From: Candidatus Poribacteria bacterium
GTDB lineage: Bacteria > Poribacteria > WGA-4E > UBA9662
Reading direction: 5' to 3'
Assembly: GCA_002697225.1 (NCBI GenBank)
Contig: NZUQ01000106.1
Coordinates: 10,501-15,975, forward strand
Length of the DNA: 5,475 nucleotides
A model generated the notes under the pieces. It ran no database searches. It had not been told where the DNA came from and saw nothing but the letters and a program-made list of their open reading frames with translations. Position 1 is the first letter of the stretch, and each line of letters begins with the position of its first letter. The translations under genes and the position numbers were made by a program. Shown here piece after piece: positions 1 to 5,475 of this stretch.

Positions 1-1385
1 AAAACCTCTGTTTTGGGATTAATTCCCAAAGTATGATAAACCGTGGCTAGAATATCTCTTGGATGTACAGGGTCTTCTAGCGGTGTGGAACCAGTCGCGT
101 CTGATTTTCCGTAGACTTGTCCTCCTTGGATCCCTGCACCAGCAATTAGTCCAGTATAACAATATGGCCAATGATCCCGCCCATCGGGAGAATTACTATT
201 ACCTGAGGTACTCACGCCTAATCGTGGGGACCTACCGAATTCACCGATAGCGAGGATAAGCGTCTCATCCAATAAACCGCGTTGATCTAAATCATCTAAC
301 AATGAAGAGACTGCGCTATCTAGTTTTGGGCAGTGTAAGTTTCTCAGCGGACCAAAATTGGCGGCATGAGTGTCCCATGCCGTTGTATTGGGATCCCCGT
401 TTGCTACTGATGGCCAATTCACTTGGACGAAACGCGTACCGGCTTCAATCAGTCGGCGAGCTAGCAATACACTTTGACCAAAAGTGTGACGACCATAGCG
501 GTCACGCATTGCATCCGTTTCTTGTGTTAAGTCGAATGCATTTCTGGCACGTTCAGAAAGTATTAGATCATAGGCTTTTTCGTAATATTCGTTTAAAGCA
601 TAAGAATCAGCTACCTTTTCAAGTTCTGGCATTGAAGCGTTGATTGTCTCAAGGAGGGTTGCCCGACGTTTCATTCGAGCGACAGGAATCTCTTCCCTGA
701 GACTAAATTCGTCCAGCTTTACTTCCTGATTTGGGTCCTGAAAGAAAAAGTATGGATCGTAAGCTCGTCCGAGAAAACCGCCTGTGCCACCTTTCCCGAT
801 AATGTTGCTTTCCTGTAGTGGTCGTGGTAGTTGAACACCGGCTAGCATCGGTACTTCGGGCGGGAGAAACTTGGCCACATGAGAAGCAACGTTGGGATGA
901 TCTTTGGGTGACGGTGGATCTAATTGACCAGAAGGTGCAACTTTATCGGGCGTAGATCCTGTTACCATTTGGTACATTGCAGCAGTGTGATTAAACAGAC
1001 CCACGGGTGTATAACTGACAGAACGAATTAAGGCCGCTTTATCCATTTGTTTGGCCAAACGCGGCATAGTTTCAGATAACCAGATACCGGGCACGTTTGT
1101 CTTAATTGGTTTGAACTCGCCACGTACATTTGAGGGTGCATCCGGCTTAGGATCCCAGATATCTATGTGGCTGGGACCGCCCTGTAAAAACATCAGAATC
1201 ACTGATTTTGCTTTACCAAAACCGCTTAGCGGTTGGGAGGGTGTAACAACTGTATTCGCTCTGGCTTGAAGCGCTAAAATTTGCGGTAGGCTCATGCCAA
1301 GCATTGCAGCGCCTCCAACCCTGAGAAATTCTCGCCTAGAAACCCCATCACACAATTGCGCTTGCTTACCGGGAATTGATAACAT
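1..1385 (-). CDS. DUF1501 family protein, Tat-exported, C-terminus cut by window edge
   Basis: The frame reads 461 codons from ATG at 1385 to the left edge with no stop, so the C-terminus is missing; from usual family length I expect only a few tens of residues are lost. The N-terminus has a twin-arginine signal, SRREFLRVGG at residues 16-25, followed by a hydrophobic stretch, which indicates folded export by Tat. Motifs typical of the family are visible: GGPSHIDIWDPKP (69-81), NHTAAMYQMVTG (132-143), WDTH (337-340), GEFGRSP (381-387) and GRDHWP (402-407). The Asp and His residues are probable metal ligands. DUF1501 belongs to the alkaline-phosphatase/sulfatase-like fold, but no substrate is established for this subgroup and I assign none. 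The start is well fixed: TAA lies in frame directly before the ATG and a good ribosome binding site precedes it. It is the last visible gene of the apparent operon, 53 bases after the DUF1549/DUF1553 gene, its usual planctomycete neighbour. Confidence 0.95.
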   Translation of the reverse strand, partial: MLSIPGKQAQLCDGVSRREFLRVGGAAMLGMSLPQILALQARANTVVTPSQPLSGFGKAKSVILMFLQGGPSHIDIWDPKPDAPSNVRGEFKPIKTNVPGIWLSETMPRLAKQMDKAALIRSVSYTPVGLFNHTAAMYQMVTGSTPDKVAPSGQLDPPSPKDHPNVASHVAKFLPPEVPMLAGVQLPRPLQESNIIGKGGTGGFLGRAYDPYFFFQDPNQEVKLDEFSLREEIPVARMKRRATLLETINASMPELEKVADSYALNEYYEKAYDLILSERARNAFDLTQETDAMRDRYGRHTFGQSVLLARRLIEAGTRFVQVNWPSVANGDPNTTAWDTHAANFGPLRNLHCPKLDSAVSSLLDDLDQRGLLDETLILAIGEFGRSPRLGVSTSGNSNSPDGRDHWPYCYTGLIAGAGIQGGQVYGKSDATGSTPLEDPVHPRDILATVYHTLGINPKTEV

Positions 1386-1438: not shown

Positions 1439-3925
1439 TTATCGATTAAACAGGAATGAAGGGCTGTTTATCAATGCCCATAAAAGGTCCTGAGCACCTT
1501 CAGCTTGGGACTCTGTTTTGGAAATGTGATCAACTGCTTTGACCAATTCAGCCTCATTTGGCATGCGACAAAGTGTCGCTAAGTAGACTTCCTTAACCAA
1601 AATGCGGTTGTCAATCTTCTGCTTTGTCAGTTGGGCGATGCGGCCCTTTGGATCATTGATGGCACTTGCGATAGTTGGGCCATTAATCAAGTTGAGTGCA
1701 TGTGATAAACTGACCTGTGTTGTTCTTTCACATTCACAGGCTGATTCGCGTTCGGGCCGGCCAAAAAGCTTTAGAAAACCGCCATCATCCAGACTACTGT
1801 CGGGCAACTGAACCGCACGGAATCCTGTGGGAACACCTGAAAACTTTGGGTGGCTTCCCGTTGCAATAGAAACTGCATCCAGCATTTGTTCTGCAGTTAA
1901 TCTTCTGGGGATTGCGTGCGAAAAATTGATTTCGTCTTCTTGGTTCCAGCGATTTGTTTTAATACTTTGCTGGTATGTCCGAGATTTGGTGATTGTATGC
2001 ATCAAGTATCTCAGGTCAAAATCGTTTTCGATAAAATCTTTGGTTAGGGCATCAAGTAATTCCGCGTTGCTGGGCGGGTTGCTTGATCTGATATCATCAA
2101 CTGGCTCAACAATACCACGTCCCAAGAAGTAACTCCAGACGCGATTGACTAGGGATTTTGCGAACCAAGGATTATCCTTTGAAACTAACCAGTTGGTAAC
2201 AGCCTCGCGTGGATCAACTCCGATTTTTTCCGCTGATCCGAACGGCACATTAGCTGGTACAATTCCCCCAGTTTTTGGATGTTTTACACCACCGCTAACG
2301 CTATAATTGTTATAAACGACCTGTTCTCCTGGAAGTTGTCCTCTTTTGACGCTAACTTCGCTAAAGTAGGATCCGAGTTCATAGTACTGGTTTTGTGTCC
2401 ATTTTTCAAACGGATGATCGTGACATTTAACACAGGCAAATCGTATGCCCAAAAAGAGCTGCGTTGCGTTTTCAATTGCGACATCTGGTTGATAGATAGT
2501 TTTATCGGTCGTCACAAGGTGATAATTTGCTGCTGGATTCCGGTAGGTACTGCCGGAGGCCATTAGTAAGTCACGAACGAATTTATCATAAGGTTTATTT
2601 TTAGCTACAGAATCATGAATCCATTTTCGGAAAAGCCAAACACCCTTTTCTCCGAGGAATTTGCGATTACATTGCAGTAAGTCAGCCCATTTGTGTGTCC
2701 AGTGTTCAACATATTCAGGTTGACCTATTAGATGATCGATTAATCTTTCGCGTTTCTGTCTTGAATTCGCATGGTCATCCAAAAATGTTTGGACTTGGCT
2801 TGGTGTTGGAGGAACACCAGTTAGGTCAAGATACAAACGCCGAATAAATTCAGCATCAGTACAAAGATCCGACGGTAAAATACGAACACGCTTTAGTTTG
2901 TCATAAACCAATTCGTCAATGTAATTGTATTGAGGCGCCGCTGCCCACTTAAATCCGGATCTGTCACCAATAACAATTATTTCACTGGTACTGTATAGGC
3001 TCTCATATCGAACTAGGATGACCGCTTCTCCACGTCGCGCAGCAGTGACAAAACCAGAATCTGATGTTGTAGCCACATCTGCCAGACTACTGCTATATAT
3101 AGCGTCCCGTGTTACGTCCCGAGATGTGCCATCTGGGTAGTGAGCAATAACGATTAATTGCTGTGCCATGCCAGGTAAATGAATTTCTGTAGCATGTGGA
3201 ATAACCTCAAGGCGAGAAACTCGCTTGGTAGCATCCACATCGGATTTAACTCCTTCAACAATCCATTGGTGAAAAGTTTTGTAATGACGTGAATCGACTT
3301 CTAAGGCCTGACCTCCTCCGTGCGGAACTCCCTGTGTTGGTTTAAGAAGCATGAGGCTCTGTGCTGGTCTAGCTCGATTCAGGCGGCGTCCCGATAAATC
3401 TGTGATTAGCGTTTGATAATCAAGATCGAGATCGTATCCTCGTAAGGAAAGTTTGAATCCATTTTTACCCTTAGCCGCCCCGTGGCAGGTTCCCGCGTTA
3501 CAGCCAACTTTACTGATAGCTGGCATTATGTCACGGACAAAGCTAATCGGTTGCGTGTCAACATTCTTTACGTTTACCGACAAGTCAATGGAATGGCGAC
3601 GAAACGCAACTTTTATGGTCGTCCAACCGACTGCAACAGGGTAAACATAGCCGGCACTGTCAATCTTAACTTTGGTATCGTTGGTTGTAAAACTTGATTC
3701 TTTTGACAGATCAATCCAGTATCCGTCTGATGTCAATCCAGAAATTGTGATGCTACGAACATCGTGTTTCCCCTCAAGAACTAGTGCTTCAGGTGTGGAT
3801 TTTAACTTGGTAATTTTGGGGATCTTGATATTGGCTGCTAGTTGTGCAGAACTAGCATTAACATTGAAATATGGGTTGAGGATTAACATCAACAAAATCC
3901 CCAAAATCGATAGCGATACTTTCAC
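1439..3925 (-). CDS. secreted cytochrome c-like protein with Ig-like, DUF1549 (PSCyt2) and DUF1553 (PSD1) domains
   Basis: This is a complete 828-residue protein. A Sec signal peptide (residues 1 to about 24: Lys2, a long hydrophobic core, likely cleavage after VNA) sends it out of the cytoplasm. An Ig-like (Big_2-type) region covers about 35-120. A PSCyt1-like cytochrome region follows, with GCNAGTCHG at 141-149 (C142, C147, H148), an expanded CX4CH haem motif. A second Ig-like domain spans about 237-320, with PDGTSRDVT at 264-272. DUF1549 covers about 335-530 and carries a canonical haem site CVKCH at 498-502. DUF1553 covers about 570-828, with LVNRVWSYFLGRG at 592-604 and FGRPERESACECER at 721-734. 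It is therefore probably a two-haem extracytoplasmic protein, possibly an electron carrier or redox enzyme; its substrate is unknown. The GTG start is chosen because TGA lies in frame just upstream, a GAGGTG site precedes it and the signal peptide begins there. It sits between the WD40/cytochrome gene and the DUF1501 gene in the same direction. Confidence 0.95.
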   Translation of the reverse strand: MKVSLSILGILLMLILNPYFNVNASSAQLAANIKIPKITKLKSTPEALVLEGKHDVRSITISGLTSDGYWIDLSKESSFTTNDTKVKIDSAGYVYPVAVGWTTIKVAFRRHSIDLSVNVKNVDTQPISFVRDIMPAISKVGCNAGTCHGAAKGKNGFKLSLRGYDLDLDYQTLITDLSGRRLNRARPAQSLMLLKPTQGVPHGGGQALEVDSRHYKTFHQWIVEGVKSDVDATKRVSRLEVIPHATEIHLPGMAQQLIVIAHYPDGTSRDVTRDAIYSSSLADVATTSDSGFVTAARRGEAVILVRYESLYSTSEIIVIGDRSGFKWAAAPQYNYIDELVYDKLKRVRILPSDLCTDAEFIRRLYLDLTGVPPTPSQVQTFLDDHANSRQKRERLIDHLIGQPEYVEHWTHKWADLLQCNRKFLGEKGVWLFRKWIHDSVAKNKPYDKFVRDLLMASGSTYRNPAANYHLVTTDKTIYQPDVAIENATQLFLGIRFACVKCHDHPFEKWTQNQYYELGSYFSEVSVKRGQLPGEQVVYNNYSVSGGVKHPKTGGIVPANVPFGSAEKIGVDPREAVTNWLVSKDNPWFAKSLVNRVWSYFLGRGIVEPVDDIRSSNPPSNAELLDALTKDFIENDFDLRYLMHTITKSRTYQQSIKTNRWNQEDEINFSHAIPRRLTAEQMLDAVSIATGSHPKFSGVPTGFRAVQLPDSSLDDGGFLKLFGRPERESACECERTTQVSLSHALNLINGPTIASAINDPKGRIAQLTKQKIDNRILVKEVYLATLCRMPNEAELVKAVDHISKTESQAEGAQDLLWALINSPSFLFNR

Positions 3926-3975: not shown

Positions 3976-5475
3976 TCAGTTCTGGATTTCTGCATTGAAA
4001 CCAGTTGCCTTGACAGCGGCAAGTAATTCGTCAACTGTAACCCGATTTCCCTTTAATGTTAGAATGGCGTTATCGGGTAGAGAAACATTCACATTAGTTA
4101 CCCCTGATATCCTATTAAGCGCACCCTGCACTTTAGCAACACAAGCACCTCAGGTCATACCATTAACGACTAATTTGATTTCTGTTGTGGCTTCAACTAC
4201 ATTATCTTTTTCTTTAACCACTTCTACTTTTTCCGTTACCTTTATACCTGTCAACGCGGAATCAAGTGGCACCGGTATAAATTCTTCGATCAATTCTCCG
4301 GAATTTGGATTGAATATTCGGACTTGACCATCGAATCCGCCGATTGCGACCTGATCCTTGTTTGGATGAAAGGCAATAGTGAAAACGGCGGTCGAGTCAG
4401 CACCAAATGTTGCGATACGATTGCCGTCTGCTACTTTGTATATTCGAACCTCACCACCAACAGTACCTACGGCGATTTGTGATCCGTCCGGACTGAAGGC
4501 AACCGCATTAATCACATCTGATTGGCGTTCAAAGGCACGGATGAGGTTGAAGTCGGTATTACCGACATCACGCCGTTTTTGGCGAAAAATCTGGTAGAGT
4601 CGCGGAATTCTATCTTCACCTCCAGATAAAACCTGATCCAACTTTGGATGGCGTGCGATTTTATGGATTGGTCCCGACCCTTTGTTACTGGCATTGATGT
4701 CATCAACGAAAGATCCACTCTTAACCTCAGTGAGTTTCAACGCTGTGTCCCTGCCGCCGGTAACAAAATGACTGCCATCAGTAGTAAACACCGTGCCCAA
4801 AACCCAATCACTATGGTTATCAAAGCGTACCAGTTCTTTTTGATCTTTGACTGAAATTATACGTGCTGTTTCGTCAGTACAACCAAAGGCGAGAAAACTA
4901 TTGTCAGGCGATAATGATGCTCCGTAGATCGTGTCGAATGTTGATTTTAATGAATGAATCAACTTATTTGCACCAGTATCCCAGATTTGAACTTCACCAA
5001 ATCTGGCGGGTGTTCCTCCAACAACTACTAGCATATTACTGTTGGTAGCATAAATAATGGATTCGATTCGATCAGATTTTCCAAGCAACCGAGCTAACAG
5101 CTTGGATCCATCTGATTTGTGCAAGAGTACCTCACGGTAACCGGAGACCGCAAGAACGTTGCCATCGGGAGAATAAGCTAAGGAAGAAATCACCGGTGGA
5201 ATTGTGTATTGAGGTGGTTCCATGGTTGAATCAGAATCCACTTCTGGTGTGTCGTTGGTTGCCCCTTCAGCGATCCAGCGACGAAAAAGCGCAATCTCGA
5301 CTTGCGTCAGTGGATCACCGTCCATTGGCATAGAAGGCGGATCCCCGGAAATCAAGTCAAGGATTAGACTTTGATCGGGTTGTCCTGCTATAAAAGCCTT
5401 TCCTTCAGATCCTCCTTGCTGAAAATTTGCATAGGAAGTCAGAATCAAGTCTCCGCGAGCTTGACTGGGCTGGTG
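3976..5475 (-). CDS. putative selenoprotein: cytochrome c (PSCyt1-type) - WD40 propeller - HMA domain, TGA read as selenocysteine, 5' partial
   Basis: The reading frame enters from the right edge and gives 499 residues in the window if the TGA at 4150..4152 is read through. The first visible residues are HQPSQARGDLILTSY; the His fits the last residue of a CxxCH haem site whose cysteines lie beyond the edge. The rest of the PSCyt1-like domain ends near residue 72 (MPMDGDPLT, then FRRWIAEGA). Seven WD40-like blades follow at about 92-400, with repeated SPDG/SPDN and HPN/HPK turns, enough for a closed propeller. A charged linker (about 401-432) leads to an HMA domain at about 433-497: strand EIKLVVNGM, loop TUGAC, helix VAKVQGALNRISG, strands VTNVNVSLP and NAILTLKG, helix TVDELLAAVKATG, strand FNAEI. 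U is residue 442, where HMA proteins have the first metal-binding Cys. HMA domains bind Cu(I), Hg(II) or similar soft metals; the metal and role here are unknown. The apparent TTG start at 5448 is not real, since the frame is open upstream. Conventional calling would end the gene at 4150. The alternatives are a nonsense mutation or a sequence error; the downstream hairpin argues against both. Confidence 0.85.
4117..4133 (-). promoter_or_regulatory. predicted bacterial SECIS hairpin within the coding sequence
   Basis: In the minus-strand RNA, AAGUGCA (4133-4127) pairs with UGCGCUU (4123-4117) over seven consecutive base pairs, one of them U-G, leaving a GGG loop (4126-4124). The loop begins 23 bases after the TGA. 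Bacterial SECIS elements are hairpins just downstream of the UGA, with a stem of at least about four pairs and a guanine in the first loop positions, where SelB binds; this one fits. If the weak closing A-U pair opens, the loop is AGGGU closed by C-G, close to the AGGUCU loop closed by C-G in the E. coli fdhF element as I recall it. The hairpin codes for the first helix of the HMA domain. Confidence 0.75.
4150..4152 (-). other. in-frame TGA, predicted selenocysteine codon
   Basis: On the minus strand the codons around it read GGT ATG ACC TGA GGT GCT TGT, that is G-M-T-U-G-A-C. In the HMA family this loop is GMTCxxC, so TGA replaces precisely the first metal-binding Cys while the second Cys (TGT at 4141..4143) is kept. 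UxxC is a common selenoprotein arrangement derived from CxxC. The domain is uninterrupted on both sides, with strand 1 before the TGA and the rest of the fold after it. Decoding would need SelA, SelB, SelC and SelD, which would be encoded elsewhere in the genome. Confidence 0.85.

Follow-up and report, generated by a model that had tools for sequence, protein, structure and literature searches.

A candidate selenocysteine codon in the HMA domain of a PSCyt1–WD40 fusion protein of Candidatus Poribacteria

Results

An in-frame TGA splits an HMA domain behind a WD40 propeller

The window, by which we mean the whole stretch of 5,475 nucleotides analyzed here, carries the gene of interest on its minus strand. 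An open frame (5475..4150, minus strand) ends with ...KLVVNGMT and runs into a TGA at 4152–4150. The coding part that precedes this codon (4153..5475, minus strand) is open at the window edge and comprises a partial PSCyt1 domain and a WD40 propeller (PF00400, 91 bits). Between the first TGA and a second one, which forms the ordinary gene end (3976..3978, minus strand), the same frame encodes 57 residues, GACVAKVQGALNRISGVTNVNVSLPDNAILTLKGNRVTVDELLAAVKATGFNAEIQN (beginning GACVAKVQGAL...). With Cys placed at the first TGA, the read-through protein matches the Pfam HMA family PF00403 over residues 437–493 (3997..4167, minus strand) with 43.0 bits against a cut-off of 24.8, and the first Cys of the GMTCxxC loop coincides with the TGA (4150..4152, minus strand), which is the predicted Sec codon of a GMT-U-GAC loop.

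The missing start is supplied by a 98% identical protein, P0002, which contains a CQGCH motif, matches PSCyt1 (PF07635, 37 bits) and has an N-terminus resembling, by eye, a signal peptide; this entry has no source label and possibly stems from the window's own record, and is therefore not counted as independent. An AF2 model with Cys at residue 442 (26-row alignment, mean pLDDT 76.8) contains a confident propeller at about residues 93–403, a linker predicted to be disordered (408–428) and an HMA fold at residues 430–497, whose six elements follow the HMA order β-α-β-β-α-β. Residue 442 immediately precedes the helix formed by residues 443–454, and model confidence is low for the partial PSCyt1 domain. 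Both the profile score, which exceeds the curated cut-off, and the modeled fold assign the C-terminal segment to the HMA family, and a Pfam domain search of the read-through protein returned no thioredoxin-like domain.

The next gene (1439..3925, minus strand) encodes PSCyt2 (DUF1549) and PSD1 (DUF1553) domains, with 171.9 and 148.8 bits, and a DUF1501 gene (3..1385, minus strand, 331.7 bits) runs off the window. Of 58 loci, the window included, 51 have a PSD1-type gene farther downstream in the same orientation and 42 have a DUF1501 gene downstream, some loci being too short to show these genes. Direct adjacency of the PSD1-type gene (< 600 nt) is limited to 6 of the 53 loci with room for it, other genes intervening elsewhere. 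L044:9445-11804 and L010:9456-13631 hold genes between the fused gene and PSCyt2/PSD1 that are absent from the window, that of L044 being sulfatase-like by eye. No metal genes (no mer or cop) were found among 14 neighboring ORFs scanned, namely ten selected at four paralog loci and four near the nearest relative (L001); these ORFs matched transposases, GIY-YIG, PhyH, TPR, glycerate kinase, a lectin-like fold, sugar kinase, dehydrogenase and aldo-keto reductase, and one had no match.

Taken alone, the window is weak evidence for Sec decoding. The fold of the 58 nt starting at the TGA, computed from the window sequence, gave z = −1.25, which is not significant, and an Rfam scan of the window returned no family match at E ≤ 1.

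The TGA is conserved and followed by constrained coding sequence

The nearest genome loci are titled Candidatus Poribacteria and are 86% (L001), 84% (L002) and 81% (L003) identical over residues 1–499; judging from these relatives, the source is most likely an uncultured member of the Poribacteria. In 66 of 84 genomes of this phylum, the part preceding the TGA has a close match (best E 2e-150 or lower). The HMA tail occurs in 57 of 80 loci, all 57 titled Poribacteria, and is absent from 23 (L053, L056, L059–L067 and L069–L080).

The window and the 57 tailed loci, one of which (L017) contributes two copies, provide 59 fused copies in which the codon was read from DNA: it is TGA in 57, TGT in one (L004) and TGC in one (L019). 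The second copy of L017 (7082-7645, plus strand) is partial, lies behind the full one and has TGA at the same codon. A third Cys copy, L127, was added later, chosen because its long frame suggested Cys; TGA is then found in 56 of the 59 copies other than the window's. Among the best 120 of 3742 proteins, 91 end exactly at the motif, 22 continue with Cys and seven lack the domain. The TGA is thus aligned with the Cys of homologs, in the 59 copies and in the 22 Cys proteins of the best 120, as is the case for selenoprotein genes.

Behind the TGA, the frame stays open for 56–57 codons in the TGA copies, and the terminal stop is itself TGA in five of the 59 copies, the window among them. For the analyses of coding constraint and synonymous sites, the 57 TGA copies were dereplicated at 90% identity, which left 41. 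Pooled pN/pS behind the TGA is 0.24 (666 pairs outside the window's clade), a value that reveals coding conservation, and by this measure the post-TGA segment is under coding constraint. Pairwise dN/dS of the window is 0.36 with L001, 0.16 with L002 and 0.24 with L003; the L002–L003 pair gives 0.57 on 14 differences.

These results bear on several claims of the first-pass annotation. The frame, for which no strand had been given, lies on the minus strand. An HMA frame split by a TGA on the first Cys of GMTCxxC, with 57 residues after it, is confirmed by the PF00403 match; the second Cys, described as intact, is kept in 41 of 41 dereplicated TGA copies, and the open frame and low pN/pS agree with the proposed lack of frame damage downstream. 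Homologs do hold TGA or Cys at this column, which had been proposed as a check. Close homologs all ending at this position had been named as evidence to the contrary: most of the best 120 protein entries do end there, but in the loci read the DNA continues in frame. The planctomycete origin that had been presumed is not supported.

A conserved predicted hairpin follows the TGA

A predicted SECIS hairpin, AAGUGCA-GGG-UGCGCUU (4117..4133, minus strand), starts 16 nt behind the TGA, the prediction being based on conservation and covariation. In the 41 copies, synonymous sites hardly vary across codons 6–10 behind the TGA, which encode K/R V Q x A: codon 7 is GTG and codon 8 CAG in 41/41, the third base of codon 9 is T in 41/41 and codon 10 is GCA in 40/41. 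In contrast, Val at codon 4 is written GTC (21), GTT (10), GTA (7) or GTG (3), and the codons used for Ala at position 28 are equally mixed. Many other columns also lie above codon-usage expectation because the copies are related; among columns 1–40 outside codons 6–10, none reaches 0.9.

The frozen run has the consensus hairpin AAGUGCA-GNN-UGCACUU, with the inner part AGUGCA-GNN-UGCACU. All six inner pairs can form in 56 of 57 fused TGA copies, the exception being L028 with one broken pair, and in 31 of 36 poribacterial HMA genes that are free-standing and carry a TGA. The first loop base is G in all 93 (57/57 fused and 36/36 free-standing); the free-copy count and the hairpin alignment exclude L125, whose loop has one additional codon. 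The three fused Cys copies all fail the hairpin rule, L004 keeping the inner stem with the loop AAC, and L019 and L127 each breaking an inner pair. None of nine Cys HMA controls passes the rule (seven are independent, L004 and L019 being counted again).

In an alignment of 77 sequences (41 fused and 36 free-standing; 74 are distinct), standard pairs fill 95.8% of pair cells. At the innermost position A–U is exchanged for G–C, and the outermost pair changes to U–A, C–G or G–C. The covariation score of 0.118 was reached by none of 500 shuffles and by no slid version. Two of the five structure measures are modest: 126 of 500 shuffles were as high as the observed number of pairs changed on both sides (two), and 16 of 500 as high as the observed number of further pair types (eight). 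On its own, RNAalifold also predicts these six inner pairs, its covariation term being only −0.16.

The exact hairpin at this spacing follows one of the 223 TGA trinucleotides of the window and is absent behind the second TGA. Across L001–L059, it follows 96 of 31,141 TGA trinucleotides, 54 of them being the sites described here (by subtraction). The comparative evidence places a predicted hairpin with G in a small apical loop directly behind the TGA, as in selenoprotein genes. A generic bSECIS rule was discarded as evidence, as it is passed by 55 of the 223 window TGAs and by four of five terminal TGAs looked at. Behind the one SelD TGA examined (L096), a hairpin of the HMA type was not visible by eye; the hairpin may therefore be particular to HMA genes.

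Most relatives searched carry the Sec machinery

In genomes of the relatives, scores over cut-off were obtained for tRNA-Sec in 25 of 31, SelB in 28 of 31, SelA in 18 of 21 and SelD in 20 of 21. An in-frame TGA is expected of a Sec-containing SelD, and each of the 20 SelD genes over cut-off has one (20/20, including L093–L098). All four components are present in G001, the genome of the nearest locus, and selB adjoins tRNA-Sec in many genomes, for example G026 and G001. The cut-offs were passed in 14 control genomes by tRNA-Sec in five, SelB in two, SelA in one and SelD in two; the tRNA search alone is therefore unspecific, and the least specific of the four.

SelA was found at E ≤ 1e-40 in 15 of 20 genomes of a second set, and not in the draft genome G052 despite its two TGA-HMA genes. 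Two other draft genomes combine a TGA copy with an incomplete set: SelA and SelD were found in G003, where SelB and tRNA-Sec are not over cut-off, and only SelD is over cut-off in G018. None of the four is over cut-off in G030, which is also without the HMA tail.

Free-standing TGA-bearing HMA genes are common in the phylum

An HMA profile search revealed that short HMA genes with a single in-frame TGA are numerous in Poribacteria, and also occur in genomes that do not have the fused gene. We read 37 TGA-type HMA domains from 28 stretches, all of them TGA-bearing because the stretches were picked for an in-frame TGA. A hairpin scan of L001–L150, a set enriched for HMA genes, yielded 103 hairpin-bearing TGAs that either show the usual motif or have an open frame before and after the codon. 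Of these, 89 are of the usual HMA type, six are HMA with slightly different motifs and eight have no recognizable protein. Most free-standing copies start with a hydrophobic stretch ending in Cys and appear lipoprotein-like by eye.

Tandem pairs of free-standing TGA-HMA genes, most with a lipoprotein-like start, occur at L119, L120, L137, L139, L141, L143, L144, L147 and L150. A single frame in G021 (L149:808-1302, plus strand) holds four HMA domains; in domains one to three, TGA stands in place of the first Cys codon and the hairpin follows each TGA, which makes this a candidate three-Sec protein.

Discussion

The exchange of Sec and Cys codons, the coding constraint, the frozen synonymous sites and the covarying hairpin, together with the Sec machinery in most of the relatives' genomes searched, strongly support the proposal of the first-pass annotation that this is a real selenoprotein. 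Sec is almost certainly inserted at the TGA at 4152–4150, and the comparative sequence data indicate that the protein is very probably decoded by the SelB/SECIS system; for Sec insertion into an HMA domain by this route, the proposed function aside, we estimate a probability of roughly 85%. In this scheme, SelB carrying Sec-tRNA would bind the predicted mRNA hairpin 16 nt behind the UGA, allowing the ribosome to decode this codon as Sec, the first metal ligand of the C-terminal HMA domain; the second TGA, which is without the exact hairpin, would terminate translation. The product would be an exported protein in which a PSCyt1 heme domain and a WD40 propeller are joined through a flexible linker to an HMA domain with a UGAC loop.

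A selenolate in this loop may raise metal affinity or confer a redox role. We lean toward the former, a function of the selenolate–thiolate pair in soft-metal binding or transfer, by analogy with the domain: the pair would bind or pass on Cu(I) or Hg(II) in a CopZ- or MerP-like manner, with a softer ligand. This preference comes from the solved relatives of the HMA segment, which include CopZ (1cpz, E 6.5e-8), MerP (1afi, E 5.5e-7) and copper-ATPase domains and are mainly copper and mercury proteins, with some zinc proteins. The CopZ and MerP metallochaperones share the fold family and the loop, but have Cys at the first ligand position and no propeller fusion, whereas the protein described here has a predicted Sec and a propeller.

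Redox chemistry is the main rival to soft-metal binding, and a serious one, although we judge it the less probable of the two. With the same Sec insertion, UGAC would be a selenol/thiol redox center and not a metal site, operating by selenenylsulfide exchange in which the PSCyt1 heme of the same polypeptide may take part; the relative P0002 has the heme-type motif CQGCH in its chain. UxxC is the usual motif of redox selenoproteins, and most uncharacterized selenoproteins are probably redox proteins in the view of a 2026 review (PMC13188914); the absence of metal genes among the 14 neighboring ORFs scanned points the same way. The HMA fold, with its copper, mercury and zinc relatives, the retention of the GMTxxxC loop and the lack of a thioredoxin-like domain argue for a metal site instead.

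A more speculative proposal, and in our estimation an unlikely one, is that the UGA acts as a selenium-gated switch, with termination releasing a complete PSCyt1–WD40 protein, Sec insertion adding the HMA tail, and both products being of importance. The TGA does lie at the start of a separate domain, behind the linker predicted to be disordered, and tail-less relatives exist (23 of the 80 loci and seven of the best 120 proteins). However, the GMTCxxC motif dictates where the codon lies, and its location at the start of the domain could thus be fortuitous; moreover, the free-standing paralogs have no preceding domain to release, and Cys copies cannot switch.

An ordinary stop or nonsense mutation with a decaying HMA remnant behind it is very improbable: in its favor, gene callers end the protein here in 91 of the best 120 entries and the close pair L002–L003 has a dN/dS of 0.57 on 14 differences, but TGA occupies one codon in 57 of 59 copies with 56–57 open codons behind it, pN/pS is 0.24, the second Cys is kept in 41/41 and the hairpin is conserved. 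A lineage-specific code change in which TGA specifies a standard amino acid, for instance Trp, which an in-frame TGA could by itself suggest, has a negligible probability, since the same genes terminate with TGA in five of 59 copies, the residue found at the column in place of TGA is Cys and not Trp, and most relatives searched have SelB and tRNA-Sec. On the basis of TGA conservation, coding constraint and hairpin conservation, we reject both a nonsense mutation and a code change.

Returning to Sec insertion into a metal-binding HMA domain, one may speculate, at long odds, that Poribacteria have phylum-wide exported selenolate-based metal handling. Tandem lipoprotein-like Sec-HMA proteins, including a three-Sec form, and a cytochrome–propeller protein ending in a Sec-HMA tail would then share one near-invariant SECIS hairpin, the UGA of the fused gene serving as a selenium-gated switch for the tail.

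HMA-type selenoproteins are a known kind. A table of the GOS survey lists a Sec MerP and a Sec E1-E2 cation ATPase, likewise selenoproteins of heavy-metal protein families, in agreement with the Sec MerP-like proteins mentioned in the first-pass annotation; the ATPase row gives UxxC, but the MerP row gives no motif, neither row names a cytochrome or WD40 fusion, and a word search of the portion of the survey covered returned no planctomycete (PMC2398784). The 2026 review lists a cation ATPase selenoprotein and a UxxU metal-binding protein (PMC13188914). The NCBIfam family NF041115 (UxxU_metal_bind) is also HMA-like with Sec in the ligand loop and matches residues 430–497, but with 49.1 bits against a cut-off of 95; its motif is UxxU where ours is UxxC, and its model of 74 positions describes a free-standing protein, unlike the present fusion. 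NF045683 (MerT_CopZ_Se, MerT/CopZ fusion-like heavy metal transport selenoprotein, NCBIfam) likewise holds a CopZ-like domain in a fusion; it scores 17.7 bits against 375, matches only at profile positions 162–229 of 235, and has a MerT-like partner in place of PSCyt1–WD40. The MerP model TIGR02052 scores 35.7 bits against 92.55.

Most bins of sponge symbionts, which belong to various phyla, contain SelA together with SelB, as one published account reports (PMC5649159). A literature search found no paper on selenoproteins in Poribacteria, and "WD40" and "poribacter" are absent from the main texts of the 2026 review (PMC13188914) and of the deep-Sep paper (PMC12013277). We found no earlier report of a PSCyt1–WD40–HMA selenoprotein fusion in a literature of which our coverage is incomplete, and a prior description is possible.

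Our analysis adds a candidate selenoprotein architecture, PSCyt1–WD40–HMA, and a set of Sec-HMA paralogs for Poribacteria. Protein databases cut most of these fusion proteins at the TGA, losing the HMA tail, as seen for 91 of the best 120 entries. With many Sec copies, a few Cys copies and one short shared hairpin, these genes offer a natural test of the contribution of selenium to metal-binding loops and of how SECIS rules apply beyond model bacteria.

The relationship between Sec and Cys copies can be followed in two trees. In the HMA tree (71 columns, 69 rows), the Cys domains from the three fused Cys copies are interspersed with Sec domains; in the WD40 tree, built with a quick method that does not resolve the base, Sec and Cys copies each fall into more than one group. 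The tree positions and the partly kept hairpins of the Cys copies favor, without proving, an order in which Sec came first and was later replaced by Cys. Genomes with a Cys copy also carry Sec genes (all four in G019, SelA in G046, and tRNA-Sec, SelB and SelD with an end-of-contig SelA fragment in G004), which suggests that Sec is not strictly needed at the HMA site. No clear TGA-type HMA was found in 14 genomes of other phyla that have a WD40 relative, one weak HMA match there holding both TGA and TAG. Within Poribacteria, one free-standing copy of G001 (L125, minus strand) has the loop GMTUGISC, that is UxxxC and not UxxC, and its hairpin is shifted by one codon.
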